DNA from: Apoda limacodes
Lineage: Eukaryota; Arthropoda; Insecta; Lepidoptera; Limacodidae
Assembly (NCBI GenBank): GCA_946406115.1
Contig: OX291540.1
Span: forward strand, 8,552,563-8,616,562
Reading direction: 5' to 3'
Length of the DNA: 64,000 nt
A program made the translations under genes and the position numbers. Each line of letters starts with the position of its first letter. Positions within the stretch are counted from its first letter, which is position 1. Positions 17,906-54,312 of this stretch are shown here, piece by piece. Under the pieces are notes generated by a model. It was not told where the DNA came from and searched no databases. It saw only the letters and a list, made by a program, of their open reading frames with translations.

Positions 17906-18020
17906 AGCACGCTGTAGTCTGGAAAAATCAAAGAAACTAATACAGGTGATAGGACCGATGGTGAATAACAACTAACCAAGTAGCGTGCGTGACTGGTGCT
18001 GCAAGTGTTAATTGTTTAAA

Positions 18021-18476
18021 AAACAATCTGAAGCGCTAGCTTTTCGAGCAAAAGATAAAAAAACAGACTGAAGCGCTGGCTTGTCGCTTGTTGAACAAAC
18101 GTTTAAAAACAGACTGAAGCACTGGCTTGTCGCTTGTTGAACAAACGTTTAAAAACAGACTGAAGCACTGGCTTGTCGCTTGTTGAACAAACGTTTAAAA
18201 ACAGACTGAAGCGCTGGCTTGTCGCTTGTCGGACAAACGTTTAAAAAACAGACTGAAGCACTGGCTTGTCGCTTGTTGAACAAACGTTTAAAAACAGACT
18301 GAAGCACTGGCTTGTCGCTTGTCGAGCAAACGTTTAAAAAACAGACTGAAGCGCTGGCTTGCCGCTTGTCGTACAAACGTTTAAAAAACAGACTGAAGGT
18401 CTGGCTTGTCGCTTGTCGAGCAAACGTTTAAAAACAGACTAAAGCGCTGGCTTGTCGCTTGTCGAGCAAACGTTTT
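18021..18476 (+). repeat. 46-47 bp minisatellite, about 10 copies
   Basis: CAGACTGAAG recurs at 18,064, 18,110, 18,156, 18,202, 18,249, 18,295, 18,342, 18,389 and (as CAGACTAAAG) 18,435, giving periods of 46 or 47 bp. A degenerate first copy precedes them. The unit reads CAGACTGAAGCGCTGGCTTG, TCGCTTGTTGAACAAACG, TTTAAAAA. Copies vary at a few sites (GCGCTGG/GCACTGG, TTGAAC/TCGAGC). A 75-codon minus-strand ORF inside is a by-product of the repeat and changes frame with the 46/47-bp steps. Confidence 0.9.
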
Positions 18477-31736: not shown

Positions 31737-31745
31737 GATACCTTC
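31737..31745 (+). repeat. Left target-site duplication, GATACCTTC
   Basis: The 9-mer is repeated directly at 54,304-54,312, right after the other end of the element. The outermost bases can be assigned to target or element: a 7-bp duplication (ATACCTT) with termini CACCGGTG, or a 9-bp duplication with termini ACCGGT, both keep the ends symmetric. Confidence 0.85.
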
Positions 31746-31905
31746 ACCGGTGTGAAGTTAGCGGCCTAAGTTAGCGGCCTTTTATAATCCGACCAAATTG
31801 AAAAGTATGGGATTTTAATGAAATAATTTACTGAATTAAACGGATATAACAATAAATAGACCAAAATAATGAGAAACCGGTTAAAAATTAAACAAATATA
31901 TATAT
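31746..31905 (+). repeat. Left terminal inverted repeat, 160 bp
   Basis: It begins ACCGGTGTG and carries two copies of AAGTTAGCGGCC at 31,755-31,766 and 31,768-31,779. It ends where the array-unit sequence (AATTTAAATAATAAA) begins. Compared with the reverse complement of 54,144-54,303 I see about three mismatches. The ends read ACCGGT or CACCGGTG, which is itself palindromic. Confidence 0.9.
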
Positions 31906-34900
31906 AATTTAAATAATAAAAAATTAAAGTAAAAGAAAATTTCACAATGTGATACTTATCGGCCTAAAAGGTCATCATAAAAATGCGGTAACACTTAGTG
32001 ACGTATGTCAAATTGAGCCTCGTTAAACCAGAAAGCATATGAAGTTTTCAAATCACACCTATCTCGGGGTTAACTGTGAGAAAAATGGTTAGCGGCGTAA
32101 AAAATATTTTCTTTCAAAATTTCAAACACACCGTAAATCTGTTGGTTAAGGAAAAAGTAACAATCAAAGGCTGTTGGAACAAGCATTTTGTATTGTTCTT
32201 ATTAATAAATATTGCTACATGTGTAATACCTCTTCAATTTAAATAATAAAAAATTAAAAGTTGAAAATAATTTCACAATGTGATACTTATTGGCATAAAA
32301 AGTCATCATGAAAATGCGGTAACACTTAGTGACGCATATCAAATTGAGCCTCTTTAAACCAGAAAGCATATCAAGTTTTCAAATCACACCTATCTCGGGG
32401 TTAACTGTGAGAAAAATGGTTAGCGGCCTAAAAATTGTTTTCTTTCAAAATTTCAAACACACCGTAAATCTGTTGGTTAAGGAAAAAGTAACAATCAAAG
32501 GCTGTTGGAACAAGCATTTTGTATTGTTCTTATTAATAAATATTGCTACATGTGTAATACCTCTTCAATTTAAATAATAAAAAATTAAAAGTTGAAAATA
32601 ATTTCACAATGTGATACTTATTGGCATAAAAAGTCATCATGAAAATGCGGTAACACTTAGTGACGCATATCAAATTGAGCCTCTTTAAACCAGAAAGCAT
32701 ATCAAGTTTTCAAATCACACCTATCTCGGGGTTAACTGTGAGAAAAATGGTTAGCGGCCTAAAAATTGTTTTCTTTCAAAATTTCAAACACACCGTAAAT
32801 CTGTTGGTTAAGGAAAAAGTAACAATCAAAGGCTGTTGAAACAAGCATTTTGTATTGTTCTTATTAATAAATATTACTACATGTGTAACACCTCTTCAAT
32901 TTAAATAATAAAAAATTAAAAGTTGAAGATAATTTCACAATGTGATACTTATTGGCATAAAAAGTCATCAAGAAAATGCGGTAACACTTAGTGACGCATA
33001 TCAAATTGAGCCTCATTAAACCAGAAAGCATATGAAGTTTTCAAATCACACCTATCTCGGGGTTAACTGTGAAAAAATGGTTAGCGGCGTAAAAAGTATT
33101 TTCTTTCAAAATTTCAAACACACCGTAAATCTGTTAGTTGAGGAAAAAGTAACAATCAAATGCCGTTGAAACAAGCATTTTGTATTGTTCTTATTAATAA
33201 ATATAGCTACATGTGTAATACCTCTTCTATTTAAATAATAAAAACAAAAGTTTAAGAAAATTTGAAAATGTGATATTTATCGGCCTAAACGGTCATCATA
33301 AAAATGCGGTAACACTTACTGACGTATGTCAAATTGAGCCTCGTTAAACCAGAAAGCATATGAAGTTTTCAAATCACACCTATCTCGGGGTTAACTGTGA
33401 GTAAAATGGTTAGCGGCCTAAAAATTATTTTCTTTCAAAATTTCAAACACAGCGTAAATCTGTTGGTTAAGGAAAAAGAAAAAATCAAAGGCTGTTGAAA
33501 CAAGCATTTTGTATTGTTCTTATTAATAAATATTGCTACATGTGTAATACCTCTTCTATTTAAATAATAAAAAAATAAAAGTTGAAGAAAATTTCACAAT
33601 GTGATACTTATCGGCCTAAAAGGTCATCATAAAAATGCGGTAACACTTAGTAACGTATGTCAAATTGAGCCTCGTTAAACCAGAAAGCATATGAAGTTTT
33701 CAAATCACACCTATCTCGGGGTTAACTGTGAGAAAAATGGTTAGCGGCCTAAAAATTATTTTCTTTCAAAATTTCAAACACACCGTAAATCTGTTGGTTA
33801 AGGAAAAAGAAAAAAATCAAAGGCTGTTGAAACAAGCATTTTGTATTGTTCTTATTAATAAATATTGCTACATGTGTAATACGTCTTCTATTTAAATAAT
33901 AAAAAAATAAAAGTTGAAGAAGATTTCACAATGTGATACTTATTGGCATAAAAAGTCATCATGAAAATGCGGTAACACTTAGTGACACATATCAAAATGA
34001 GCCTCTTTAAACCAGAAACCATATCAAGTTTGCAAATCACACCTATCTCGGGGTTAACTGTGAGAAAAATGGTTAGCGGCCTAAAAATTGTTTTCTTTCA
34101 AAATTTCAAACACACCGTAAATCTGTTGGTTAAGGAAAAAGAAACAATCAAAGGCTGTTGGAACAAGCATTTTGTATTGTTCTTATTAATAAATATTGCT
34201 ACATGTGTAATACCTCTTCAATTTAAATAATAAAAAAATAAAAGTTGAAGAAGATTTCACAATGTGATACTTATTGGCATAAAAAGTCATCATGAAAATG
34301 CGGTAACACTTAGTGACGCATATCAAAATGAGCCTCTTTAAACCAGAAAGCATATCAAGTTTTCAAATCACACCTATCTCGGGGTTAACTGTGAGAAAAA
34401 TGGTTAGCGGCCTAAAAATTATTTTCTTTCAAAATTTCAAACACACCGTAAATCTGTTAGTTGAGGAAAAAGTAACAATCAAATGCCGTTGAAACAAGCA
34501 TTTTGTATTGTTCTTATTAATAAATATAGCTACATGTGTAATACCTCTTCTATTTAAATAATAAAAACAAAAGTTTAAGAAAATTTGAAAATGTGATATT
34601 TATCGGCCTAAACGGTCATCATAAAAATGCGGTAACACTTACTGACGTATGTCAAATTGAGCCTCGTTAAACCAGAAAGCATATGAAGTTTTCAAATCAC
34701 ACCTATCTCGGGGTTAACTGTGAGTAAAATGGTTAGCGGCCTAAAAATTATTTTCTTTCAAAATTTCAAACACAGCGTAAATCTGTTGGTTAAGGAAAAA
34801 GAAAAAATCAAAGGCTGTTGAAACAAGCATTTTGTATTGTTCTTATTAATAAATATTGCTACATGTGTAATACCTCTTCTATTTAAATAATAAAAAAATA

Positions 34901-37900
34901 AAAGTTGAAGAAAATTTCACAATGTGATACTTATCGGCCTAAAAGGTCATCATAAAAATGCGGTAACACTTAGTAACGTATGTCAAATTGAGCCTCGTTA
35001 AACCAGAAAGCATATGAAGTTTTCAAATCACACCTATCTCGGGGTTAACTGTGAGAAAAATGGTTAGCGGCCTAAAAATTATTTTCTTTCAAAATTTCAA
35101 ACACACCGTAAATCTGTTGGTTAAGGAAAAAGAAAAAAATCAAAGGCTGTTGAAACAAGCATTTTGTATTGTTCTTATTAATAAATATTGCTACATGTGT
35201 AATACGTCTTCTATTTAAATAATAAAAAAATAAAAGTTGAAGAAGATTTCACAATGTGATACTTATTGGCATAAAAAGTCATCATGAAAATGCGGTAACA
35301 CTTAGTGACACATATCAAAATGAGCCTCTTTAAACCAGAAACCATATCAAGTTTGCAAATCACACCTATCTCGGGGTTAACTGTGAGAAAAATGGTTAGC
35401 GGCGTAAAAAATATTTTCTTTCAAAATTTCAAACACACCGTAAATCTGTTGGTTAAGGAAAAAGAAACAATCAAAGGCTGTTGGAACAAGCATTTTGTAT
35501 TGTTCTTATTAATAAATATTGCTACATGTGTAATACCTCTTCAATTTAAATAATAAAAAAATAAAAGTTGAAGAAGATTTCACAATGTGATACTTATTGG
35601 CATAAAAAGTCATCATGAAAATGCGGTAACACTTAGTGACGCATATCAAAATGAGCCTCTTTAAACCAGAAAGCATATCAAGTTTTCAAATCACACCTAT
35701 CTCGGGGTTAACTGTGAGAAAAATGGTTAGCGGCCTAAAAATTATTTTCTTTCAAAATTTCAAACACACCGTAAATCTGTTAGTTGAGGAAAAAGTAACA
35801 ATCAAATGCCGTTGAAACAAGCATTTTGTATTGTTCTTATTAATAAATATAGCTACATGTGTAATACCTCTTCTATTTAAATAATAAAAACAAAAGTTTA
35901 AGAAAATTTGAAAATGTGATATTTATCGGCCTAAACGGTCATCATAAAAATGCGGTAACACTTAGTGACGCATATCAAATTGAGCCTCTTTAAACCAGAA
36001 ACCATATCAAGTTTTCAAATCACACCTATCTCGGGGTTAACTGTGAGAAAAATGGTTAGCGGCCTAAAAAATATTTTCTTTCAAAATTTCAAACACACCG
36101 TAAATCTGTTAGTTGAGGAAAAAGTTACAATCAAATGCTGTTGAAACAAGCATTTTGTATTGTTCTTATTAATAAATATTACTACATGTGTAACACCTCT
36201 TCAATTTAAATAATAAAAAATTAAAAGTTAAAGAAAATTTCACAATGTGATACATATTAGCATAAAAAGTCATCATGAAAATGCGGTAACACTTAGTGAC
36301 GCATATCAAATTGAGCCTCTTTAAACCAGAAACCATATCAAGTTTGCAAATCACACCTATCTCGGGGTTAACTGTGAGAAAAATGGTTAGCGGCGTAAAA
36401 AATATTTTCTTTCAAAATTTCAAACACACCGTAAATCTGTTGGTTAAGGAAAAAGAAACAATCAAAGGCTGTTGGAACAAGCATTTTGTATTGTTCTTAT
36501 TAATAAATATTGCTACATGTGTAATACCTCTTCAATTTAAATAATAAAAAAATAAAAGTTGAAGAAGATTTCACAATGTGATACTTATTGGCATAAAAAG
36601 TCATCATGAAAATGCGGTAACACTTAGTGACGCATATCAAAATGAGCCTCTTTAAACCAGAAAGCATATCAAGTTTTCAAATCACACCTATCTCGGGGTT
36701 AACTGTGAGAAAAATGGTTAGCGGCCTAAAAATTATTTTCTTTCAAAATTTCAAACACACCGTAAATCTGTTAGTTGAGGAAAAAGTAACAATCAAAGGC
36801 GGTTGAAACAAGCATTTTGTATTGTTCTTATTAATAAATATAGCTACATGTGTAATACCTCTTCTATTTAAATAATAAAAACAAAAGTTTAAGAAAATTT
36901 GAAAATGTGATATTTATCGGCCTAAACGGTCATCATAAAAATGCGGTAACACTTACTGACGTATGTCAAATTGAGCCTCGTTAAACCAGAAAGCATATGA
37001 AGTTTTCAAATCACACCTATCTCGGGGTTAACTGTGAGTAAAATGGTTAGCGGCCTAAAAATTATTTTCTTTCAAAATTTCAAACACAGCGTAAATCTGT
37101 TGGTTAAGGAAAAAGAAAAAATCAAAGGCTGTTGAAACAAGCATTTTGTATTGTTCTTATTAATAAATATTGCTACATGTGTAATACCTCTTCTATTTAA
37201 ATAATAAAAAAATAAAAGTTGAAGAAAATTTCACAATGTGATACTTATCGGCCTAAAAGGTCATCATAAAAATGCGGTAACACTTAGTAACGTATGTCAA
37301 ATTGAGCCTCGTTAAACCAGAAAGCATATGAAGTTTTCAAATCACACCTATCTCGGGGTTAACTGTGAGAAAAATGGTTAGCGGCCTAAAAATTATTTTC
37401 TTTCAAAATTTCAAACACACCGTAAATCTGTTGGTTAAGGAAAAAGAAAAAAATCAAAGGCTGTTGAAACAAGCATTTTGTATTGTTCTTATTAATAAAT
37501 ATTGCTACATGTGTAATACGTCTTCTATTTAAATAATAAAAAAATAAAAGTTGAAGAAGATTTCACAATGTGATACTTATTGGCATAAAAAGTCATCATG
37601 AAAATGCGGTAACACTTAGTGACACATATCAAAATGAGCCTCTTTAAACCAGAAACCATATCAAGTTTGCAAATCACACCTATCTCGGGGTTAACTGTGA
37701 GAAAAATGGTTAGCGGCGTAAAAAATATTTTCTTTCAAAATTTCAAACACACCGTAAATCTGTTGGTTAAGGAAAAAGAAACAATCAAAGGCTGTTGGAA
37801 CAAGCATTTTGTATTGTTCTTATTAATAAATATTGCTACATGTGTAATACCTCTTCAATTTAAATAATAAAAAAATAAAAGTTGAAGAAGATTTCACAAT

Positions 37901-40444
37901 GTGATACTTATTGGCATAAAAAGTCATCATGAAAATGCGGTAACACTTAGTGACGCATATCAAAATGAGCCTCTTTAAACCAGAAAGCATATCAAGTTTT
38001 CAAATCACACCTATCTCGGGGTTAACTGTGAGAAAAATGGTTAGCGGCCTAAAAATTATTTTCTTTCAAAATTTCAAACACACCGTAAATCTGTTAGTTG
38101 AGGAAAAAGTAACAATCAAAGGCGGTTGAAACAAGCATTTTGTATTGTTCTTATTAATAAATATAGCTACATGTGTAATACCTCTTCTATTTAAATAATA
38201 AAAACAAAAGTTTAAGAAAATTTGAAAATGTGATATTTATCGGCCTAAACGGTCATCATAAAAATGCGGTAACACTTACTGACGTATGTCAAATTGAGCC
38301 TCGTTAAACCAGAAAGCATATGAAGTTTTCAAATCACACCTATCTCGGGGTTAACTGTGAGTAAAATGGTTAGCGGCCTAAAAATTATTTTCTTTCAAAA
38401 TTTCAAACACACCGTAAATCTGTTGGTTAAGGAAAAAGAAAAAATCAAAGGCTGTTGAAACAAGCATTTTGTATTGTTCTTATTAATAAATATTGCTACA
38501 TGTGTAATACGTCTTCTATTTAAATAATAAAAAAATAAAAGTTGAAGAAGATTTCACAATGTGATACTTATTGGCATAAAAAGTCATCATGAAAATGCGG
38601 TAACACTTAGTGACACATATCAAAATGAGCCTCTTTAAACCAGAAACCATATCAAGTTTGCAAATCACACCTATCTCGGGGTTAACTGTGAGAAAAATGG
38701 TTAGCGGCCTAAAAATTATTTTCTTTCAAAATTTCAAACACACCGTAAATCTGTTGGTTAAGGAAAAAGAAAAAAATCAAAGGCTGTTGAAACAAGCATT
38801 TTGTATTGTTCTTATTAATAAATATTGCTACATGTGTAATACCTCTTCTATTTAAATAATAAAAAAATAAAAGTTGAAGAAAATTTCACAATGTGATACT
38901 TATCGGCCTAAAAGGTCATCATAAAAATGCGGTAACACTTAGTAACGTATGTCAAATTGAGCCTCGTTAAACCAGAAAGCATATGAAGTTTTCAAATCAC
39001 ACCTATCTCGGGGTTAACTGTGAGAAAAATGGTTAGCGGCCTAAAAATTATTTTCTTTCAAAATTTCAAACACACCGTAAATCTGTTGGTTAAGGAAAAA
39101 GAAAAAAATCAAAGGCTGTTGAAACAATCATTTTGTATTGTTCTTATTAATAAATATTGCTACATGTGTAATACGTCTTCTATTTAAATAATAAAAAAAT
39201 AAAAGTTGAAGAAGATTTCACAATGTGATACTTATTGGCATAAAAAGTCATCATGAAAATGCGGTAACACTTAGTGACACATATCAAAATGAGCCTCTTT
39301 AAACCAGAAACCATATCAAGTTTGCAAATCACACCTATCTCGGGGTTAACTGTGAGAAAAATGGTTAGCGGCGTAAAAAATATTTTCTTTCAAAATTTCA
39401 AACACACCGTAAATCTGTTGGTTAAGGAAAAAGAAACAATCAAAGGCTGTTGGAACAAGCATTTTGTATTGTTCTTATTAATAAATATTGCTACATGTGT
39501 AATACCTCTTCAATTTAAATAATAAAAAAATAAAAGTTGAAGAAGATTTCACAATGTGATACTTATTGGCATAAAAAGTCATCATGAAAATGCGGTAACA
39601 CTTAGTGACGCATATCAAAATGAGCCTCTTTAAACCAGAAAGCATATCAAGTTTTCAAATCACACCTATCTCGGGGTTAACTGTGAGAAAAATGGTTAGC
39701 GGCCTAAAAATTATTTTCTTTCAAAATTTCAAACACACCGTAAATCTGTTGGTTAAGGAAAAAGTAACAATCAAAGGCTGTTGGAACAAGCATTTTGTAT
39801 TGTTCTTATTAATAAATATTGCCACATGTGAAATACCTCTTCAATTTAAATAATAAAAAATTAAAAGATGAAAATAATTTCACAATGTGATACTTATTGG
39901 CATAAAAAGTCGTCATGAAAATGCGGTAACACTTAGTGACGCATATCAAATTGAGCCTCTTTAAACCAGAAAGCATATCAAGTTTTCAAATCACACCTAT
40001 CTCGGGGTTAACTGTGAGAAAAATGGTTAGCGGCCTAAAAAATATTTTCTTTCAAAATTTCAAACACACCGTAAATCTGTTAGTTGAGGAAAAAGTTACA
40101 ATCAAATGCCATTGAAACAAGCATTTTGTATTGTTCTTATTAATAAATATTGCTACATGTGTAATACGTCTTCTATTTAAATAATAAAAAAATAAAAGTT
40201 GAAGAAGATTTCACAATGTGATACTTATCGGCCTAAACGGTCATCATAAAAATGCGGTAACACTTAGTAACGTATGTCAAATTGAGCCTCGTTAAACCAG
40301 AAAGCATATGAAGTTTTCAAATCACACCTATCTCGGGGTTAACTGTGAGAAAAATGGTTAGCGGCCTAAAAAATATATGCTTTCAAAATTTCAAACACAC
40401 CGTAAATCTGTTAGTTGAGGAAAAAGTTATGTTGCTATTGAATC
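31906..40444 (+). repeat. Left-arm satellite array, about 26 units of ~331 bp
   Basis: The marker CTCGGGG occurs at 32,063, 32,394, 32,725, 33,056, 33,384, 33,715, 34,047, 34,378, 34,707 and so on to 40,332, with steps of 328-332 bp. Each unit runs through TTTCACAATGTGATACTTA, ATGCGGTAACACTTAGTGAC, AACCAGAAAGCATAT, CTCGGGGTTAACTGTGAG, GGTTAGCGGCCTAAAA and AAACACACCGTAAATCTGTT. Two unit classes differ at linked sites: TTGGCATAAAAAGTCATCAT with GAGCCTCTTTAAAC, and TCGGCCTAAAAGGTCATCAT with GAGCCTCGTTAAAC. Higher-order repeats of 4 units (1,323 bp) and 7 units (2,314 bp) are visible. Confidence 0.95.
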
Positions 40445-40459
40445 AAGCATTTGATGCTT
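40445..40459. repeat. Inversion centre with 15-bp mini-hairpin
   Basis: At the point where the array flips, AAGCAT-TTG-ATGCTT forms a perfect 6-bp stem with a 3-nt loop. To the left the sequence follows the unit at TTGAAACAAGCAT (here TTGAATCAAGCAT), and to the right the inverted unit at CCAGAAAGCAT (here CCAGGAAGCAT). The two arms therefore meet at different unit phases that share AAGCAT, which suggests joining through that microhomology. The bases at 40,427-40,440 (GTTATGTTGCTATT) do not match the unit well. Confidence 0.85.
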
Positions 40460-43400
40460 CCTGGTTTAAAAAGGCTCAATTTGATATGCGTCACTAAGTG
40501 TTACCGCATTTTCATGATGACTTTGTATGCCAATAAGTATCACATTGTGAAATTTTATTCAACTTTTAATTTTTTATTATTTAAATTGAAGAGGTGTTAC
40601 ACATGTAGTAATATTTATTAATAAGTAAAATACAAACTGCTTGTTTCAACAGCCTTTTATTGTTACTTTTTCCTTAACCAACAGATTAACGGTGTGTTTT
40701 AAATTTTGAAAGAAAATAATTTTTAGGCCGCTAACCATTTTACTCATAGTTAACCCCGAGATAGGTGTGATTTGAAAACTTCATATGCTTTCTGGCTTAA
40801 CGAGGCTCAATTTGACATACGTCAGTAAGTGTTACCGCATTTTTATGATGACCTTTTAGGCCGATAAATATCACATTTTCAAATTTTCTTAAACTTTTAT
40901 TTTTCATTATTTAAATAGAAGAGGTATTACACATGTAGAAATATTTATTAATAAGAACAATACAAAATGCTTGTTTCGACAGCCTTTGATTGTTACTTTT
41001 TCCTTAACCAACAGATTTACGGTGTGTTTGAAATTTTGAAAGAAAATTATTTTTAGACCGCAAACCATTTTACTCACAGTTAACCCCGAGATAGGTGTGA
41101 TTTGAAAACTTCATATGCTTTCTGGTTTAAAGAGGCTCAATTTGATATGCGTCACTAAGTGTTACCGCATTTTCTTGATGACTTTTTATGCCAATAAGTA
41201 TCAAATTGCGAAATTTTCTTAAACTTTTATTTTTTATTATTTAAAGAGAAGAGGTATTACACATGTAGCAATATTTATTAATAAGAACAATACAAAATGC
41301 TTGTTTCAACGGCATTTGATTGTTACTTTTTCCTTAACCAACAGATTTACGGTGTGTTTGAAATTTTGAAAGAAAATTATTTTTAGACCGCAAACCATTT
41401 TACTCACAGTTAACCCCGAGATAGGTTTGATTTGAAAACTTGATATGCTTTCTGGTTTAAAGAGGCTCAATTTGATATGCGTCACTAAGTGTTACCGCAT
41501 TTTCTTGATGACTTATTATGCCAATAAGTATCACATTGCGAAATTTTCTTAAACTTTTATTTTTTATTTTTTAAAGAGAAGAGGTATTACACATGTAGCA
41601 ATATTTGTTAATAAGAACAATACAAAATGCTTGTTTTAACGGCATTTGATTGTAACTTTTTCCTCAACCAACAGATTTACGGTGTGTTTGAAATTTTGAA
41701 AGAAAATATTTTTTACGCCGCTAACCATTTTTCTCACAGTTAACCCCGAGATATGTTTGATTTGAAAACTTGATATGCTTTCTGGTTTAAAGAGGCTCAA
41801 TTTGATATGCGTCACTAAGTGTTACCGCATTTTCATGATGACTTTTTATGCCAATAAGTATCACATTGTGAAATTTTATTCAACTTTTAATTTTTTATTA
41901 TTTAAATTGAAGAGGTGTTACACATGTAGTAATATTTATTAATAAGAACAATACAAAATGCTTGTTTCAACAGCATTTGATTGTAACTTTTTCCTCAACT
42001 AACAGATTTCCGGTGTGTTTGAAATTTTGAAAGAAAATATTTTTTACGCCGCTAACCATTTTTCTCACAGTTAACCCCGAGATAGGTGTGATTTGAAAAC
42101 TTTATATGCTTTCTGGTTTAAAGAGGTTCAATTTGATATGCGTCACTAAGTGTTACCGCATTTTCATGATGACTTTTTATGCCAATAAGTATCACATTGT
42201 GAAATTTTATTCAACTTTTAATTTTTTATTATTTAAATTGAAGAGGTGTTACACATGTAGTAATATTTATTAATAAGTAAAATACAAAATGCTTGTTTCA
42301 ACAGCCTTTTATTGTTACTTTTTCCTTAACCAACAGATTTACGGTGTGTTTTAAATTTTGAAAGAAAATAATTTTTAGGCCGCTAACCATTTTACTCACA
42401 GTTTACCCCGAGATAGGTGTGATTTGAAAACTTCATATGCTTTCTGGCTTAACGAGGCTCAATTTGACATACGTCAGTAAGTGTTACCGCATTTTTATGA
42501 TGGCCTTTTAGGCCGATAAATATCACATTTTCAAATTTTCTTAAACTTTTATTTTTTATTATTTAAATAGAAGAGGTATTACACATGTAGCAATATTTAT
42601 TAATAAGAACAATACAAAATGCTTGTTTCAACCGCCTTTGATTGTTACTTTTTCCTTAACCAACAGATTTACGGTGTGTTTGAAATTTTGAAAGAAAATT
42701 ATTTTTAGACCGCAAACCATTTTACTCACAGTTAACCCCGAGATAGGTGTGATTTGAAAACTTGATATGCTCTCTGGTTTAAAGAGGCTCAATTTGATAT
42801 GCGTCACTAAGTGTTACCGCATTTTCTTGATGACTTTTTATGCCAATAAGTATCAAATTGCGAAATTTTCTTCAACTTTTATTTTTTATTATTTAAAGAG
42901 AAGAGGTATTACACATGTAGCAATATTTATTAATAAGAACAATACAAAATGCTTGTTTCAACGGCATTTGATTGTTACTTTTTCCTTAACCAACAGATTT
43001 ACGGTGTGTTTGAAATTTTGAAAGAAAATTATTTTTAGACCGCAAACCATTTTACTCACAGTTAACCCCGAGATAGGTTTGATTTGAAAACTTGATATGC
43101 TTTCTGGTTTAAAGAGGCTCAATTTGATATGCGTCACTAAGTGTTACCGCGTTTTCATGATGACTTTTTACGCCAATAAGTATCACATTGTGAAATTTTA
43201 TTCAACTTTTAATTTTTTATTATTGAAATTGAAGAGGTGTTACACATGTAGTAATATTTATTAATAAGAACAATACAAAATGCTTGTTTCAACAGCATTT
43301 GATTGTAACTTTTTCCTCAACTAACAGATTTACGGTGTGTTTGAAATTTTGAAAGAAAATATTTTTTAGGCCGCTAACCATTTTTCTCACAGTTAACCCC

Positions 43401-46400
43401 GAGATAGGTGTGATTTGAAAACTTGATATGGTTTCTGGTTTAAAGAGGCTCAATTTGATATGCGTCACTAAGTGTTACCGCATTTTCATGATGACTTTTT
43501 ACGCCAATAAGTATCACATTGTGAAATTTTATTCAACTTTTAATTTTTTATTATTGAAATTGAAGAGGTGTTACACATGTAGTAATATTTATTAATAAGA
43601 ACAATACAAAATGCTTGTTTCAATAGCCTTTGATTTTTACCTTTTCCTTAACCAACAGATTTACGGTGTGTTTGAAATTTTGAAAGAAAATATTTTTTAC
43701 GCCTCTAACCATTTTTCTCACAGTTAACCCCGAGATAGGTGTGATTTGAAAACTTGATATGCTCTCTGGTTTAAAGAGGCTCAATTTGATATGCGTCACT
43801 AAGTGTTACCGCATTTTCATGATGACTTTTTATGCCAATAAGTATCACATTGTGAAATTTTATTCAACTTTTAATTTTTTATTATTTAAATTGAAGAGGT
43901 GTTACACATTTAGTAATATTTATTAATAAGAACAATACAAAATGCTTGTTTCAACAGCATTTGATTGTAACTTTTTCCTCAACTAACAGATTTCCGGTGT
44001 GTTTGAAATTTTGAAAGAAAATATTTTTTACGCCGCTAACCATTTTTCTCACAGTTAACCCCGAGATAGGTGTGATTTGAAAACTTTATATGCTTTCTGG
44101 TTTAAAGAGGTTCAATTTGATATGCGTCACTAAGTGTTACCGCATTTTCATGATGACTTTTTATGCCAATAAGTATCACATTGTGAAATTTTATTCAACT
44201 TTTAATTTTTTATTATTTAAATTGAAGAGGTGTTACACATGTAGTAATATTTTTTAATAGGTAAAATACAAAATGCTTGTTTCAACAGCATTTTATTGTT
44301 ACTTTTTCCTTAACCAACAGATTTACGGTGTGTTTTAAATTTTGAAAGAAAATAATTTTTAGGCCGCTAACCATTTTACTCACAGTTTACCCCGAGATAG
44401 GTGTGATTTGAAAACTTCATATGCTTTCTGGCTTAACGAGGCTCAATTTGACATACGTCAGTAAATGTTACCGCATTTTTATGATGGCCTTTTAGGCCGA
44501 TAAATATCACATTTTCAAATTTTCTTAAACTTTTATTTTTTATTATTTAAATAGAAGAGGTATTACACATGTAGCAATATTTATTAATAAGAACAATACA
44601 AAATGCTTGTTTCAACGGCATTTGATTGTTACTTTTTCCTTAACCAACAGATTTACGGTGTGTTTGAAATTTTGAAAGAAAATTATTTTTAGACCGCAAA
44701 CCATTTTACTCACAGTTTACCCCGAGATAGGTGTGATTTGAAAACTTCATATGCTTTCTGGCTTAACGAGGCTCAATTTGACATACGTCAGTAAGTGTTA
44801 CCGCATTTTTATGATGACTTTTTACGCCAATAAGTATCACATTGTGAAATTTTATTCAACTTTTAATTTTTTATTATTGAAATTGAAGAGGTGTTACACA
44901 TGTAGTAATATTTATTAATAAGAACAATACAAAATGCTTGTTTCAACAGCATTTGATTGTAACTTTTTCCTCAACTAACAGATTTACGGTGTGTTTGAAA
45001 TTTTGAAAGAAAATATTTTTTAGGCCGCTAACCATTTTTCTCACAGTTAACCCCGAGATAGGTGTGATTTGAAAACTTGATATGGTTTCTGGTTTAAAGA
45101 GGCTCAATTTGATATGCGTCACTAAGTGTTACCGCATTTTCATGATGACTTTTTACGCCAATAAGTATCACATTGTGAAATTTTATTCAACTTTTAATTT
45201 TTTATTATTGAAATTGAAGAGGTGTTACACATGTAGTAATATTTATTAATAAGAACAATACAAAATGCTTGTTTCAATAGCCTTTGATTTTTACCTTTTC
45301 CTTAACCAACAGATTTACGGTGTGTTTGAAATTTTGAAAGAAAATATTTTTTACGCCTCTAACCATTTTTCTCACAGTTAACCCCGAGATAGGTGTGATT
45401 TGAAAACTTGATATGCTCTCTGGTTTAAAGAGGCTCAATTTGATATGCGTCACTAAGTGTTACCGCATTTTCATGATGACTTTTTATGCCAATAAGTATC
45501 ACATTGTGAAATTTTATTCAACTTTTAATTTTTTATTATTTAAATTGAAGAGGTGTTACACATTTAGTAATATTTATTAATAAGAACAATACAAAATGCT
45601 TGTTTCAACAGCATTTGATTGTAACTTTTTCCTCAACTAACAGATTTCCGGTGTGTTTGAAATTTTGAAAGAAAATATTTTTTACGCCGCTAACCATTTT
45701 TCTCACAGTTAACCCCGAGATAGGTGTGATTTGAAAACTTTATATGCTTTCTGGTTTAAAGAGGTTCAATTTGATATGCGTCACTAAGTGTTACCGCATT
45801 TTCATGATGACTTTTTATGCCAATAAGTATCACATTGTGAAATTTTATTCAACTTTTAATTTTTTATTATTTAAATTGAAGAGGTGTTACACATGTAGTA
45901 ATATTTTTTAATAGGTAAAATACAAAATGCTTGTTTCAACAGCCTTTTATTGTTACTTTTTCCTTAACCAACAGATTTACGGTGTGTTTTAAATTTTGAA
46001 AGAAAATAATTTTTAGGCCGCTAACCATTTTACTCACAGTTTACCCCGAGATAGGTGTGATTTGAAAACTTCATATGCTTTCTGGCTTAACGAGGCTCAA
46101 TTTGACATACGTCAGTAAGTGTTACCGCATTTTTATGATGGCCTTTTAGGCCGATAAATATCACATTTTCAAATTTTCTTAAACTTTTATTTTTTATTAT
46201 TTAAATAGAAGAGGTATTACACATGTAGCAATATTTATTAATAAGAACAATACAAAATGCTTGTTTCAACGGCATTTGATTGTTACTTTTTCCTTAACCA
46301 ACAGATTTACGGTGTGTTTGAAATTTTGAAAGAAAATTATTTTTAGACCGCAAACCATTTTACTCACAGTTAACCCCGAGATAGGTGTGATTTGAAAACT

Positions 46401-49400
46401 TCATATGCTTTCTGGTTTAAAGAGGCTCAATTTGATATGCGTCACTAAGTGTTACCGCATTTTCTTGATGACTTTTTATGCCAATAAGTATCAAATTGCG
46501 AAATTTTCTTAAACTTTTATTTTTTATTATTTAAAGAGAAGAGGTATTACACATGTAGCAATATTTATTAATAAGAACAATACAAAATGCTTGTTTCAAC
46601 GGCATTTGATTGTTACTTTTTCCTTAACCAACAGATTTACGGTGTGTTTGAAATTTTGAAAGAAAATTATTTTTAGACCGCAAACCATTTTACTCACAGT
46701 TAACCCCGAGATAGGTTTGATTTGAAAACTTGATATGCTTTCTGGTTTAAAGAGGCTCAATTTGATATGCGTCACTAAGTGTTACCGCATTTTCTTGATG
46801 ACTTATTATGCCAATAAGTATCACATTGCGAAATTTTCTTAAACTTTTATTTTTTATTTTTTAAAGAGAAGAGGTATTACACATGTAGCAATATTTGTTA
46901 ATAAGAACAATACAAAATGCTTGTTTTAACGGCATTTGATTGTAACTTTTTCCTCAACCAACAGATTTACGGTGTGTTTGAAATTTTGAAAGAAAATATT
47001 TTTTACGCCGCTAACCATTTTTCTCACAGTTAACCCCGAGATATGTTTGATTTGAAAACTTGATATGCTTTCTGGTTTAAAGAGGCTCAATTTGATATGC
47101 GTCACTAAGTGTTACCGCATTTTCATGATGACTTTTTATGCCAATAAGTATCACATTGTGAAATTTTATTCAACTTTTAATTTTTTATTATTTAAATTGA
47201 AGAGGTGTTACACATGTAGTAATATTTATTAATAAGAACAATACAAAATGCTTGTTTCAACAGCATTTGATTGTAACTTTTTCCTCAACTAACAGATTTC
47301 CGGTGTGTTTGAAATTTTGAAAGAAAATATTTTTTACGCCGCTAACCATTTTTCTCACAGTTAACCCCGAGATAGGTGTGATTTGAAAACTTTATATGCT
47401 TTCTGGTTTAAAGAGGTTCAATTTGATATGCGTCACTAAGTGTTACCGCATTTTCATGATGACTTTTTATGCCAATAAGTATCACATTGTGAAATTTTAT
47501 TCAACTTTTAATTTTTTATTATTTAAATTGAAGAGGTGTTACACATGTAGTAATATTTATTAATAAGTAAAATACAAAATGCTTGTTTCAACAGCCTTTT
47601 ATTGTTACTTTTTCCTTAACCAACAGATTTACGGTGTGTTTTAAATTTTGAAAGAAAATAATTTTTAGGCCGCTAACCATTTTACTCACAGTTTACCCCG
47701 AGATAGGTGTGATTTGAAAACTTCATATGCTTTCTGGCTTAACGAGGCTCAATTTGACATACGTCAGTAAGTGTTACCGCATTTTTATGATGGCCTTTTA
47801 GGCCGATAAATATCACATTTTCAAATTTTCTTAAACTTTTATTTTTTATTATTTAAATAGAAGAGGTATTACACATGTAGCAATATTTATTAATAAGAAC
47901 AATACAAAATGCTTGTTTCAACCGCCTTTGATTGTTACTTTTTCCTTAACCAACAGATTTACGGTGTGTTTGAAATTTTGAAAGAAAATTATTTTTAGAC
48001 CGCAAACCATTTTACTCACAGTTAACCCCGAGATAGGTGTGATTTGAAAACTTGATATGCTCTCTGGTTTAAAGAGGCTCAATTTGATATGCGTCACTAA
48101 GTGTTACCGCATTTTCTTGATGACTTTTTATGCCAATAAGTATCAAATTGCGAAATTTTCTTCAACTTTTATTTTTTATTATTTAAAGAGAAGAGGTATT
48201 ACACATGTAGCAATATTTATTAATAAGAACAATACAAAATGCTTGTTTCAACGGCATTTGATTGTTACTTTTTCCTTAACCAACAGATTTACGGTGTGTT
48301 TGAAATTTTGAAAGAAAATTATTTTTAGACCGCAAACCATTTTACTCACAGTTAACCCCGAGATAGGTTTGATTTGAAAACTTGATATGCTTTCTGGTTT
48401 AAAGAGGCTCAATTTGATATGCGTCACTAAGTGTTACCGCGTTTTCATGATGACTTTTTACGCCAATAAGTATCACATTGTGAAATTTTATTCAACTTTT
48501 AATTTTTTATTATTGAAATTGAAGAGGTGTTACACATGTAGTAATATTTATTAATAAGAACAATACAAAATGCTTGTTTCAACAGCATTTGATTGTAACT
48601 TTTTCCTCAACTAACAGATTTACGGTGTGTTTGAAATTTTGAAAGAAAATATTTTTTAGGCCGCTAACCATTTTTCTCACAGTTAACCCCGAGATAGGTG
48701 TGATTTGAAAACTTGATATGGTTTCTGGTTTAAAGAGGCTCAATTTGATATGCGTCACTAAGTGTTACCGCATTTTCATGATGACTTTTTACGCCAATAA
48801 GTATCACATTGTGAAATTTTATTCAACTTTTAATTTTTTATTATTGAAATTGAAGAGGTGTTACACATGTAGTAATATTTATTAATAAGAACAATACAAA
48901 ATGCTTGTTTCAATAGCCTTTGATTTTTACCTTTTCCTTAACCAACAGATTTACGGTGTGTTTGAAATTTTGAAAGAAAATATTTTTTACGCCTCTAACC
49001 ATTTTTCTCACAGTTAACCCCGAGATAGGTGTGATTTGAAAACTTGATATGCTCTCTGGTTTAAAGAGGCTCAATTTGATATGCGTCACTAAGTGTTACC
49101 GCATTTTCATGATGACTTTTTATGCCAATAAGTATCACATTGTGAAATTTTATTCAACTTTTAATTTTTTATTATTTAAATTGAAGAGGTGTTACACATT
49201 TAGTAATATTTATTAATAAGAACAATACAAAATGCTTGTTTCAACAGCATTTGATTGTAACTTTTTCCTCAACTAACAGATTTCCGGTGTGTTTGAAATT
49301 TTGAAAGAAAATATTTTTTACGCCGCTAACCATTTTTCTCACAGTTAACCCCGAGATAGGTGTGATTTGAAAACTTTATATGCTTTCTGGTTTAAAGAGG

Positions 49401-52400
49401 TTCAATTTGATATGCGTCACTAAGTGTTACCGCATTTTCATGATGACTTTTTATGCCAATAAGTATCACATTGTGAAATTTTATTCAACTTTTAATTTTT
49501 TATTATTTAAATTGAAGAGGTGTTACACATGTAGTAATATTTTTTAATAGGTAAAATACAAAATGCTTGTTTCAACAGCATTTTATTGTTACTTTTTCCT
49601 TAACCAACAGATTTACGGTGTGTTTTAAATTTTGAAAGAAAATAATTTTTAGGCCGCTAACCATTTTACTCACAGTTTACCCCGAGATAGGTGTGATTTG
49701 AAAACTTCATATGCTTTCTGGCTTAACGAGGCTCAATTTGACATACGTCAGTAAATGTTACCGCATTTTTATGATGGCCTTTTAGGCCGATAAATATCAC
49801 ATTTTCAAATTTTCTTAAACTTTTATTTTTTATTATTTAAATAGAAGAGGTATTACACATGTAGCAATATTTATTAATAAGAACAATACAAAATGCTTGT
49901 TTCAACGGCATTTGATTGTTACTTTTTCCTTAACCAACAGATTTACGGTGTGTTTGAAATTTTGAAAGAAAATTATTTTTAGACCGCAAACCATTTTACT
50001 CACAGTTTACCCCGAGATAGGTGTGATTTGAAAACTTCATATGCTTTCTGGCTTAACGAGGCTCAATTTGACATACGTCAGTAAGTGTTACCGCATTTTT
50101 ATGATGACTTTTTACGCCAATAAGTATCACATTGTGAAATTTTATTCAACTTTTAATTTTTTATTATTGAAATTGAAGAGGTGTTACACATGTAGTAATA
50201 TTTATTAATAAGAACAATACAAAATGCTTGTTTCAACAGCATTTGATTGTAACTTTTTCCTCAACTAACAGATTTACGGTGTGTTTGAAATTTTGAAAGA
50301 AAATATTTTTTAGGCCGCTAACCATTTTTCTCACAGTTAACCCCGAGATAGGTGTGATTTGAAAACTTGATATGGTTTCTGGTTTAAAGAGGCTCAATTT
50401 GATATGCGTCACTAAGTGTTACCGCATTTTCATGATGACTTTTTACGCCAATAAGTATCACATTGTGAAATTTTATTCAACTTTTAATTTTTTATTATTG
50501 AAATTGAAGAGGTGTTACACATGTAGTAATATTTATTAATAAGAACAATACAAAATGCTTGTTTCAATAGCCTTTGATTTTTACCTTTTCCTTAACCAAC
50601 AGATTTACGGTGTGTTTGAAATTTTGAAAGAAAATATTTTTTACGCCTCTAACCATTTTTCTCACAGTTAACCCCGAGATAGGTGTGATTTGAAAACTTG
50701 ATATGCTCTCTGGTTTAAAGAGGCTCAATTTGATATGCGTCACTAAGTGTTACCGCATTTTCATGATGACTTTTTATGCCAATAAGTATCACATTGTGAA
50801 ATTTTATTCAACTTTTAATTTTTTATTATTTAAATTGAAGAGGTGTTACACATTTAGTAATATTTATTAATAAGAACAATACAAAATGCTTGTTTCAACA
50901 GCATTTGATTGTAACTTTTTCCTCAACTAACAGATTTCCGGTGTGTTTGAAATTTTGAAAGAAAATATTTTTTACGCCGCTAACCATTTTTCTCACAGTT
51001 AACCCCGAGATAGGTGTGATTTGAAAACTTTATATGCTTTCTGGTTTAAAGAGGTTCAATTTGATATGCGTCACTAAGTGTTACCGCATTTTCATGATGA
51101 CTTTTTATGCCAATAAGTATCACATTGTGAAATTTTATTCAACTTTTAATTTTTTATTATTTAAATTGAAGAGGTGTTACACATGTAGTAATATTTTTTA
51201 ATAGGTAAAATACAAAATGCTTGTTTCAACAGCCTTTTATTGTTACTTTTTCCTTAACCAACAGATTTACGGTGTGTTTTAAATTTTGAAAGAAAATAAT
51301 TTTTAGGCCGCTAACCATTTTACTCACAGTTTACCCCGAGATAGGTGTGATTTGAAAACTTCATATGCTTTCTGGCTTAACGAGGCTCAATTTGACATAC
51401 GTCAGTAAGTGTTACCGCATTTTTATGATGGCCTTTTAGGCCGATAAATATCACATTTTCAAATTTTCTTAAACTTTTATTTTTTATTATTTAAATAGAA
51501 GAGGTATTACACATGTAGCAATATTTATTAATAAGAACAATACAAAATGCTTGTTTCAACGGCATTTGATTGTTACTTTTTCCTTAACCAACAGATTTAC
51601 GGTGTGTTTGAAATTTTGAAAGAAAATTATTTTTAGACCGCAAACCATTTTACTCACAGTTAACCCCGAGATAGGTGTGATTTGAAAACTTGATATGCTC
51701 TCTGGTTTAAAGAGGCTCAATTTGATATGCGTCACTAAGTGTTACCGCATTTTCTTGATGACTTTTTATGCCAATAAGTATCAAATTGCGAAATTTTCTT
51801 CAACTTTTATTTTTTATTATTTAAAGAGAAGAGGTATTACACATGTAGCAATATTTATTAATAAGAACAATACAAAATGCTTGTTTCAACGGCATTTGAT
51901 TGTTACTTTTTCCTTAACCAACAGATTTACGGTGTGTTTGAAATTTTGAAAGAAAATTATTTTTAGACCGCAAACCATTTTACTCACAGTTAACCCCGAG
52001 ATAGGTTTGATTTGAAAACTTGATATGCTTTCTGGTTTAAAGAGGCTCAATTTGATATGCGTCACTAAGTGTTACCGCGTTTTCATGATGACTTTTTACG
52101 CCAATAAGTATCACATTGTGAAATTTTATTCAACTTTTAATTTTTTATTATTGAAATTGAAGAGGTGTTACACATGTAGTAATATTTATTAATAAGAACA
52201 ATACAAAATGCTTGTTTCAACAGCATTTGATTGTAACTTTTTCCTCAACTAACAGATTTACGGTGTGTTTGAAATTTTGAAAGAAAATATTTTTTAGGCC
52301 GCTAACCATTTTTCTCACAGTTAACCCCGAGATAGGTGTGATTTGAAAACTTGATATGGTTTCTGGTTTAAAGAGGCTCAATTTGATATGCGTCACTAAG

Positions 52401-54143
52401 TGTTACCGCATTTTCATGATGACTTTTTACGCCAATAAGTATCACATTGTGAAATTTTATTCAACTTTTAATTTTTTATTATTGAAATTGAAGAGGTGTT
52501 ACACATGTAGTAATATTTATTAATAAGAACAATACAAAATGCTTGTTTCAATAGCCTTTGATTTTTACCTTTTCCTTAACCAACAGATTTACGGTGTGTT
52601 TGAAATTTTGAAAGAAAATATTTTTTACGCCTCTAACCATTTTTCTCACAGTTAACCCCGAGATAGGTGTGATTTGAAAACTTTATATGCTTTCTGGTTT
52701 AAAGAGGCTCAATTTGATATGCGTCACTAAGTGTTACCGCATTTTCATGATGACTTTTTATGCCAATAAGTATCACATTGTGAAATTTTATTCAACTTTT
52801 AATTTTTTATTATTTAAATTGAAGAGGTGTTACACATGTAGTAATATTTTTTAATAGGTAAAATACAAAATGCTTGTTTCAACAGCCTTTTATTGTAACT
52901 TTTTCCTCAACTAACAGATTTACGGTGTGTTTGAAATTTTGAAAGAAAATATTTTTTACGCCGCTAACCTTTTTTTTCAAAGTTAACCCCGAGATAGGTG
53001 TGATTTGAAAACTTGATATGCTCTCTGGTTTAAAGAGGCTCAATTTGATATGCGTCACTAAGTGTTACCGCATTTTCATGATGACTTTTTATGCTAATAT
53101 GTATCACATTGTGAAATTTTCTTTAACTTTTAATTTTTTATTATTTAAATTGAAGAGGTGTTACACATGTAGTAATATTTATTAATAAGAACAATACAAA
53201 ATGCTTGTTTCAACAGCATTTGATTGTAACTTTTTCCTCAACTAACAGATTTACGGTATGTTTGAAATTTTGAAAGAAAATATTTTTTAGGCCGCTAACC
53301 ATTTTTCTCACAGTTAACCCCGAGATAGGTGTGATTTGAAAACTTGATATGGTTTCTGGTTTAAAGAGGCTCAATTTGATATGTGTCACTAAGTGTTACC
53401 GCATTTTCATGATGACTTTTTATGCCAATAAGTATCACATTGTGAAATTTTATTCAACTTTTAATTTTTTATTATTTAAATTGAAGAGGTGTTACACATG
53501 TAGTAATATTTATTAATAAGAACAATACAAAATGCTTGTTTCAACAGCATTTGATTGTAACTTTTTCCTCAACTAACAGATTTACGGTGTGTTTGAAATT
53601 TTGAAAGAAAATATTTTTTACGCCGCTAACCTTTTTTTTCAAAGTTAACCCCGAGATAGGTGTGATTTGAAAACTTGATATGCTCTCTGGTTTAAAGAGG
53701 CTCAATTTGATATGCGTCACTAAGTGTTACCGCATTTTCATGATGACTTTTTATGCTAATATGTATCACATTGTGAAATTTTCTTTAACTTTTAATTTTT
53801 TATTATTTAAATTGAAGAGGTGTTACACATGTAGTAATATTTATTAATAAGAACAATACAAAATGCTTGTTTCAACAGCATTTGATTGTAACTTTTTCCT
53901 CAACTAACAGATTTACGGTGTGTTTGAAATTTTGAAAGAAAATATTTTTTAGGCCGCTAACCATTTTTCTCACAGTTAACCCCGAGATAGGTGTGATTTG
54001 AAAACTTGATATGGTTTCTGGTTTAAAGAGGCTCAATTTGATATGCGTCACTAAGTGTTACCGCATTTTTATGATGACCTTTTAGGCCGATAAGTATCAC
54101 ATTGTGAAATTTTATTTTACTTTAATTTTTTATTATTTAAATT
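40460..54143 (-). repeat. Right-arm satellite array, about 41 inverted units of ~331 bp
   Basis: The reversed marker TAACCCCGAG (or TTACCCCGAG) recurs every 330-331 bp at 40,751, 41,081, 41,411, 41,741, 42,072 and so on to 53,977. The units are the reverse complement of the left arm. Some classes have a decayed core (GACCGCAAACC in place of GGCCGCTAACC). Long higher-order repeats are present: 16 units = 5,290 bp and 11 units = 3,638 bp. Confidence 0.95.
40990..51660 (-). repeat. Two tandem copies of a 5,290-bp higher-order repeat
   Basis: Sequence from about 40,990 to 46,280 repeats from about 46,280 to 51,660 at an exact offset of 5,290 bp. Wherever I compared the copies (for example 42,121 with 47,411 and 42,767 with 48,057) I found no difference. 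The match starts just after GACAGCCTTTGATTG (40,978), where the other copy reads AACGGCATTTGATTG. It either reflects very recent amplification or an assembly duplication. Confidence 0.85.
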
Positions 54144-54303
54144 ATATATATATTTGTTTAATTTTTGACCGGTTTCTCATTATTTTGGTCTATTTATTGT
54201 TATATCCGTTTAATTCAGTAAATTATTTCATTAAAATCCCTTACTTTTTAATTTGGTCGGATTATAAAAGGCCGCTAACTTAGGCCGCTAACTTCACACC
54301 GGT
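54144..54303 (-). repeat. Right terminal inverted repeat, 160 bp
   Basis: Reverse complement of the left TIR, with about three mismatches. It carries GGCCGCTAACTTAGGCCGCT (two GGCCGCTAACTT cores) and ends CTTCACACCGGT. Confidence 0.9.
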
Positions 54304-54312
54304 GATACCTTC
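54304..54312 (+). repeat. Right target-site duplication, GATACCTTC
   Basis: Direct repeat of 31,737-31,745. See the left copy for the 7 versus 9 bp ambiguity. Confidence 0.85.

Follow-up and report, generated by a model that had tools for sequence, protein, structure and literature searches.

A stretch of 64,000 nucleotides from the lepidopteran Apoda limacodes, here called the window, lies on contig C28 of the 800.3-Mb host genome and contains an element of 22,558 bp at positions 31746–54303 (the window element, or window copy). It is of the foldback type: its long inverted termini are made of tandem 331-bp units and are able to fold back. A free-standing satellite would be an array without element ends, whereas this array ends in 160-bp terminal inverted repeats (TIRs) and target site duplications. 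We consider it very probable that the window element belongs to a giant foldback DNA transposon family related to Rehavkus/Mutator and is a non-autonomous, recently mobile copy. With less assurance, we also favour a wider reading, namely that the satellite itself spreads as a transposon: ordered arrays of up to about 68 units would jump whole between chromosomes in palindromes of 5–23 kb, the arrays would be rebuilt by frequent loss and gain of blocks, and the autonomous source would be a palindrome of 20 kb that holds two transposase genes in divergent orientation.

A dispersed family with ordered arrays

The host genome (G000, 31 contigs) was searched with the 160-bp TIR, and copies are labelled by contig. 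Out of 592 candidates, 40 were scored, and all 40 match at 98% identity or more. The sequence-only reading had treated a single genomic occurrence of the TIR as fatal to it; with these matches the TIR is not single. Fifteen elements, the window copy and 14 others, were compared whole, and further elements by their ends; the right end of C27 was set by hand for the unit comparison, at the place found in the end comparison. Both ends were read in 18 elements, which lie on 15 contigs, and 15 of these elements are bordered by exact 9-bp duplications, namely 12 of the 15 whole elements, C1 (ends only), C5 and C11b. The window copy alone allows a duplication of 9, 7 or 5 bp, and the other copies settle it at 9 bp. 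The whole elements are 5,365–22,558 bp long, with 6–42 units per arm, and among the 17 fully read elements the window copy has the greatest length. Short copies, consisting of the TIR and one to three units, had been suggested as worth seeking; relatives shorter than the window copy do exist, but the shortest one seen has 16 units and 5.4 kb, and none with 1–3 units was seen.

Each of the twelve main copies has one end of the L type and one of the R type. The three TIR differences between the two types are common to all twelve, hence they are older than the dispersal. At nine more scored places one end was read: five have 15–16 differences from the L-type TIR, two are of the C25 type and two of the main type. 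Units are present at all seven of these places that were tested (the five of the 15–16-difference type and the two of the C25 type). Neither the TIR nor the unit has a match in viral contigs, nor has the unit one in prokaryote genome contigs, as expected for an insect element.

Two places show unusual combinations of ends. The elements L016 (C19:11745830-11755228) and L017 (C19:11441957-11451021) are situated about 300 kb apart in opposite orientation and have no matching duplications, and the 9-mer AAGTATTAT borders one of them at its L-type end and the other at its R-type end. This sharing is possibly the trace of an exchange between copies that inverted the intervening stretch; a simple two-copy inversion does not account for it, as the remaining two flanks do not match. 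The element L011–L012 (C21:22108690-22119750) is chimeric, with one main-type end, one end of the 15-difference type and an intact 9-bp duplication.

The arrays were compared by 460 units from the 15 whole elements, the innermost unit of each arm being excluded. These units represent 137 distinct sequences and, at two differences, 79 clusters, of which 28 are found in two or more elements; of the 30 clusters with more than one member, three are represented in both arms. The 260-bp centre around the inversion junction is identical, with zero differences, in 12 of the 15 whole elements. Among the twelve main copies, ten left arms begin with the variants L M N Q A C and six finish with X U, while eleven right arms begin with O I and nine finish with S R. 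In the 1,494 bp of edges plus centre these copies are 0–6 bases apart, eight being identical and C8 being the outlier. Runs of up to 22 units are common to copies at different sites, and the longest identical stretches are 2.4–4.9 kb in five tested pairs (4.5–4.9 kb in four of the five). The same ends, the same centre and the largely same variant order indicate that the arrays were already long and ordered at dispersal.

At that, every left arm of the twelve main copies is structurally different, and so is every right arm. Blocks of units have been deleted, inserted or replaced. Apart from one unit and a 16-unit insertion, the window copy has the same right arm as C12, and the right arms of C20, C11 and C3 each equal that of C12 minus a single block. 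The sequence-only reading had offered a choice between an array that moved as one unit and one that grew inside the element after insertion. Both parts appear to hold: long arrays moved whole, and block gains and losses followed or accompanied the dispersal.

An account by growth alone, in which a short TIR element was inserted, a few units expanded later in place and the other copies expanded independently, we regard as very improbable. Two facts agree with it: the right arm carries an exact duplication of 5,417 bp that is younger than the TIR difference, and each of the twelve main copies has arms of a different structure. However, independent growth would not give the variant order and long runs common to different sites, nor the identical 4.5–4.9 kb in four of five tested pairs, nor two gene-bearing copies, C5 and C11b, that share 19.5 kb at 99.7%. 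Hence expansion in place survives as a later step, not as the sole explanation.

The same 5,417-bp duplication, with zero differences in an analysis made from the assembly alone, could also raise the suspicion that the palindrome, or parts of it such as this duplication, is an assembly artefact. We give this little credence, as exact duplications stand beside clean ends in 15 of the 18 elements, which are spread over 15 contigs, and identical junctions and a common unit order recur at unrelated places.

The substitution rate for butterflies is 2.9e-9. At this rate the mean pairwise difference of the twelve main copies, C8 included, corresponds to roughly 150,000 generations, and the exact 5.4-kb duplication is less than about 95,000 generations old at 95%; both figures are rough.

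Gene-bearing relatives and their protein

Two of the deviating copies have a different centre. That of C25 is longer, 1,909 bp, and holds a frame of 165 codons, whereas that of C27 has 390 bp. C25 keeps a relic of the gene-bearing middle domain, and L026 (C25) and L027 (C27) may be intermediates. The C25 frame has no relative in the viral contigs searched and 76 matches in the host genome. Four frames of 1237–1241 codons were found at three loci, each within an inverted pair, and further gene pairs are present on C8 and C13.

The C5 element is 20,047 bp long, with AAAAACGGA on both sides, and has the order TIR, 15 units, outward gene, centre, second outward gene copy, 14 units, TIR. The C11b element, 19,704 bp long with 14 + 14 units, has TTTTTTATT on both sides. 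These two elements, in inverse orientation on different contigs and with different duplications, match at 99.69% over 19,554 bp, which shows that the whole 20-kb element was copied together with its arrays. Their arms are identical at 98.1% over 9,249 bp in C5 and at 98.6% in C11b (9.2–9.4 kb). Each element has one broken and one open gene copy; counted from the first methionine, the open copy has 1233 codons in C5 and 1229 in C11b. On C23 (L053–L056, C23:14588002 to beyond 14616600) both gene copies are open, with 1238 codons; the left end and 13 units were read there, and the right arm has at least 38 units, with no right end within 28.6 kb of the left end. If C23 is one element, it exceeds 28.6 kb. 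Thus the search for a transposase gene flanked by the same TIR, advised from the sequence alone, led to a transposase-like gene inside 20-kb elements that have the same kind of units and TIRs with 5–6 differences of 160 from the window-type TIR.

For the C5 protein, 1233 aa, Pfam yields only a PHD finger and a C1 match, the former (PF00628) with E 4.2e-5 and 23.9 bits, just below the cut-off of 24; NCBIfam yields no match. Seven homologues (P0121–P0127) with 31–38% identity were identified among 7,983 scored candidates. Above the cut-offs, three of the seven contain YqaJ, three Ulp1 and four PHD. In the alignment C5 is gapped at the YqaJ domain and at the QxDxxNCG motif of the Ulp1 part, and the profile built from all eight sequences finds Ulp1/SENP1 structures (E 1.5e-16 at best) as well as PHD finger chains in the PDB. 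FDATG and V-x-D are invariant in the alignment and are accompanied by a C-C-x-H/S-H motif and the SNxxVE glutamate. D390 and D462 of P0124 are invariant in 8/8 rows, and the glutamate is present in all seven rows with letters there. The order FDATG, V-x-D, C-C-x-H/S-H, SNxxVE is that expected for Mutator transposases. With moderate confidence, we assign the C5-type protein to the Mutator-type transposases on these alignments.

Galileo and the P superfamily make 7-bp duplications. The family described here differs from them in its 9-bp duplication and in the C5 protein, for which no match to the THAP domain was found.

The history that we propose starts from what is observed: a family with target duplications, a common unit order and junction, two almost identical 20-kb gene-bearing copies at separate sites, and genes between like ends. 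The gene-bearing form would be ancestral, a 20-kb near-palindrome composed of a TIR, an arm of 14–15 units, a gene, a short centre, the inverse gene, the second arm and a TIR. A derivative would have lost the genes, its two arms being fused at a six-base hairpin. This gene-less derivative, already with two long arms of ordered variants, would have reached many places, with target duplications of 9 bp, probably by cut-and-paste and presumably with the protein of the gene-bearing copies, which would act in trans. Each copy would have lost or gained blocks by exchange between like units, during the jump or later; unequal exchange or slipped repair may be behind these length changes. The length of the window copy would come partly from the 16-unit duplication in its right arm. 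The order of these events is likewise the one we consider probable.

Several points weigh against this history and against the family assignment. Three of the 15 whole elements (C3, C19a and C19b) are without a matching duplication, and C21a, C25 and C27 deviate in the ends or in the centre. The units of C5 are on average 6.3–6.7% from the units of the main copies, versus 4.6–5.0% from those of C25; by these distances and the TIR differences the gene-bearing copies read are evidently not direct parents of the window type. In the C5 protein itself Pfam finds neither the Mutator-like element (MULE) domain nor Ulp1, and the MULE catalytic domain, PF10551, is weak in one of the seven homologues (P0124, E 0.0013, 19.5 bits versus the cut-off of 27.6). 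The AlphaFold prediction for P0124 is too poor for use, with a mean predicted local distance difference test score (pLDDT) of 44.5.

Structure of the window copy

The coordinates of the window element and its parts are given in Table 1. The TIRs and the direct duplication just outside both ends are situated where the first inspection had placed them. The inverted similarity of the ends extends ungapped into the array, at 96% over 557 bp. The unit period of 331 bp was likewise correct, while the count, initially put at about 67, is 68 by unit anchors (26 in the left arm, plus strand, and 42 in the right arm, minus strand). At 40452/40454, where the arms are joined, the left one is cut near unit position 282 and the right one near 132, hence the units are out of phase across the centre.

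Table 1. Parts of the window element and its target site duplication (positions in the window)
Feature	Position	Strand	Remarks
Left target site duplication	31737–31745		9 bp, GATACCTTC; same letters at 54304–54312; 9 bp fixed by other copies
Left TIR, L type	31746–31905	+	160 bp; 3 differences from right end; 100% matches elsewhere in the genome
Tandem 13-mer AAGTTAGCGGCCT	31755–31780		Inside left TIR
Left arm	31906–40452	+	26 units of 331 bp; 4-unit higher-order repeats
Exact 1,319-bp repeat, left arm	34488–35806	+	Second copy at 36802–38120
394-bp tract, left arm	35937–36330	+	Inverted, identical to outer end of right arm (53686–54079)
Central segment around inversion junction	40251–40510		260 bp; 0 differences in 12 of 15 compared copies, window copy included
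Junction hairpin AAGCAT-TTG-ATGCTT	40445–40459		Joins the arms without a unique loop
Right arm	40454–54143	-	42 units of 331 bp, inverted; 5-, 11- and 16-unit higher-order repeats
5,417-bp stretch, right arm	40985–46401	-	Exact recurrence at 46275–51691; 16-unit tandem duplication; insertion relative to C12 right arm
Right TIR, R type	54144–54303	-	160 bp; 3 differences from left TIR
Right target site duplication	54304–54312		9 bp, GATACCTTC; identical to 31737–31745

The units of the window copy sort into classes differing by at most 1%, and no class is common to both arms. With the two chimeric central units excluded, 47 sites are variable in the left arm and 65 in the right one, 29 of them in both. 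Of 27 representative units, 25 have their closest relative within their own arm, a value reached by none of 5000 permutations; the arm difference in mean unit distance is weaker (p 0.035). The sites variable in both arms, together with the own-arm nearest relatives, suggest that much of the unit variation is older than the separate growth of the arms. The identical 394-bp tract is likely a product of exchange between the arms, and as such speaks for occasional exchange and against full independence of the arms.

The opinion that the TIR has nothing obvious in common with the unit except one motif was about right, as there is a single 13-bp match. This bears on the idea that the arrays are kept because the units carry transposase binding sites, marked by the TTAGCGGCC motif, so that longer arms transpose better, a cause that has been proposed for Galileo and Tetris. 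The motif is repeated twice in tandem in the TIR and found at 34 places in the arms, and in Galileo, according to an excerpt of PMC3688188, the TIR repeats hold functional sites. However, of 1000 dinucleotide shuffles, 31 gave a match of 13 bp or more; TTAGCGGCC is less conserved than 279 of the 323 nine-base windows in the unit; and, of sites amounting to 68 units, only 34 retain the 9-mer. The shuffles and the conservation ranks weaken TTAGCGGCC as a mark of selected binding sites. The idea, which is compatible with the transposon reading favoured here, thus seems doubtful for this family, although less so than either growth in place alone or an artefact.

Within the window element the frames, taken from stop to stop, do not exceed 87 codons, and for the 87-residue frame of the array no homologue was found. 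In the window no RNA family reaches its gathering score, and there is no tRNA. Outside the element, positions 60001–62292 on the minus strand contain a retrotransposon without long terminal repeats (non-LTR), with a reverse transcriptase frame of 732 aa (60001–62199). Among 120 listed homologues of 7,305, all nine with an organism name are from Lepidoptera, and a comparison of this reverse transcriptase with phages gave no match. A minisatellite of about nine 46-bp units is situated at 18014–18475.

Comparison with known systems

The question of how satellite arrays arise and become scattered is an old one, and the recent movement of arrays of dozens of units bears on it. The ordered unit variants serve as barcodes, with block losses and gains readable against a near-zero substitution background, and a candidate autonomous source is present within the same genome. 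If the proposed reading is true, satellite origin, dispersal and the rate of array turnover can be counted within one genome from each copy in turn. Since long palindromes should be unstable, their spread is unexpected.

Excerpts of the cited papers serve for the comparison below. In the literature searched, mostly open-access and without Repbase, and in the portions consulted, lepidopteran satellite papers included, no lepidopteran element of like kind was found. A survey of arthropod MULEs (2026) reports DDE transposons with TIRs in 88 lepidopteran species, with Rehavkus as an outgroup; the complete elements are 1,875–9,972 bp long, the transposases have 313–1136 aa, and the TIRs 13–1193 bp in the text and up to 1527 in a table row (PMC13359780). 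In a set of oyster satellites, partly borne by Helentrons, the longest array has 29 monomers, and the model of Scalvenzi and Pollet, as discussed there, has the repeat number drop as mobility rises (PMC7492417).

Galileo, of the P superfamily, has long TIRs with internal tandem repeats that vary in number independently at each end, but these TIRs have two or three repeats and lengths of up to about 1.3 kb, and the transposase is of the P type with THAP (PMC3573991). Tm1, a Foldback/Phantom Mutator element, combines composite TIRs of variable tandem repeats, commonly 9-bp duplications and a Mutator-type (Phantom) transposase; it differs in its repeats of about 14 bp, its element lengths of 1.1 and 2.6 kb and in having FLYWCH rather than PHD (PMC3169594). 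Tetris of Drosophila virilis is a non-autonomous foldback element with TIR repeats of about 220 bp and duplications of 8–10 bp, and is a source of satellite arrays; fibre fluorescence in situ hybridization shows long arrays flanked by two TIR domains. Its TIRs extend up to 1,735 bp, three copies are structurally complete, and the excerpts state that the source of transposase was not found (PMC4079207). As compared to Tetris so described, the present family is represented by more copies, its arms reach 42 units, and it has a candidate transposase source.

The closest known kind, by its described features, is Rehavkus, with 9-bp duplications, a PHD finger in the transposase and a minisatellite before the 3' TIR (PMC6446971); 9-bp duplications, the PHD finger and a satellite beside the TIR are all found here. 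In Tribolium, Rehavkus-1_TC is 9.5 kb long, and its inverted termini contain TCsat23, with a unit of 164 bp, mostly as five and eight monomers (PMC10218199). The window family differs in having 331-bp units, 6–42 per arm, in copies of 5.4–22.6 kb read whole, 20-kb gene-bearing palindromes with two divergent gene copies, homologues with Ulp1 domains and a lepidopteran host, and is about twice the described Rehavkus length or more. Relative to these systems, the novelty lies in the size and arm length, the palindrome with two gene copies and the reshuffling of the arrays from copy to copy.

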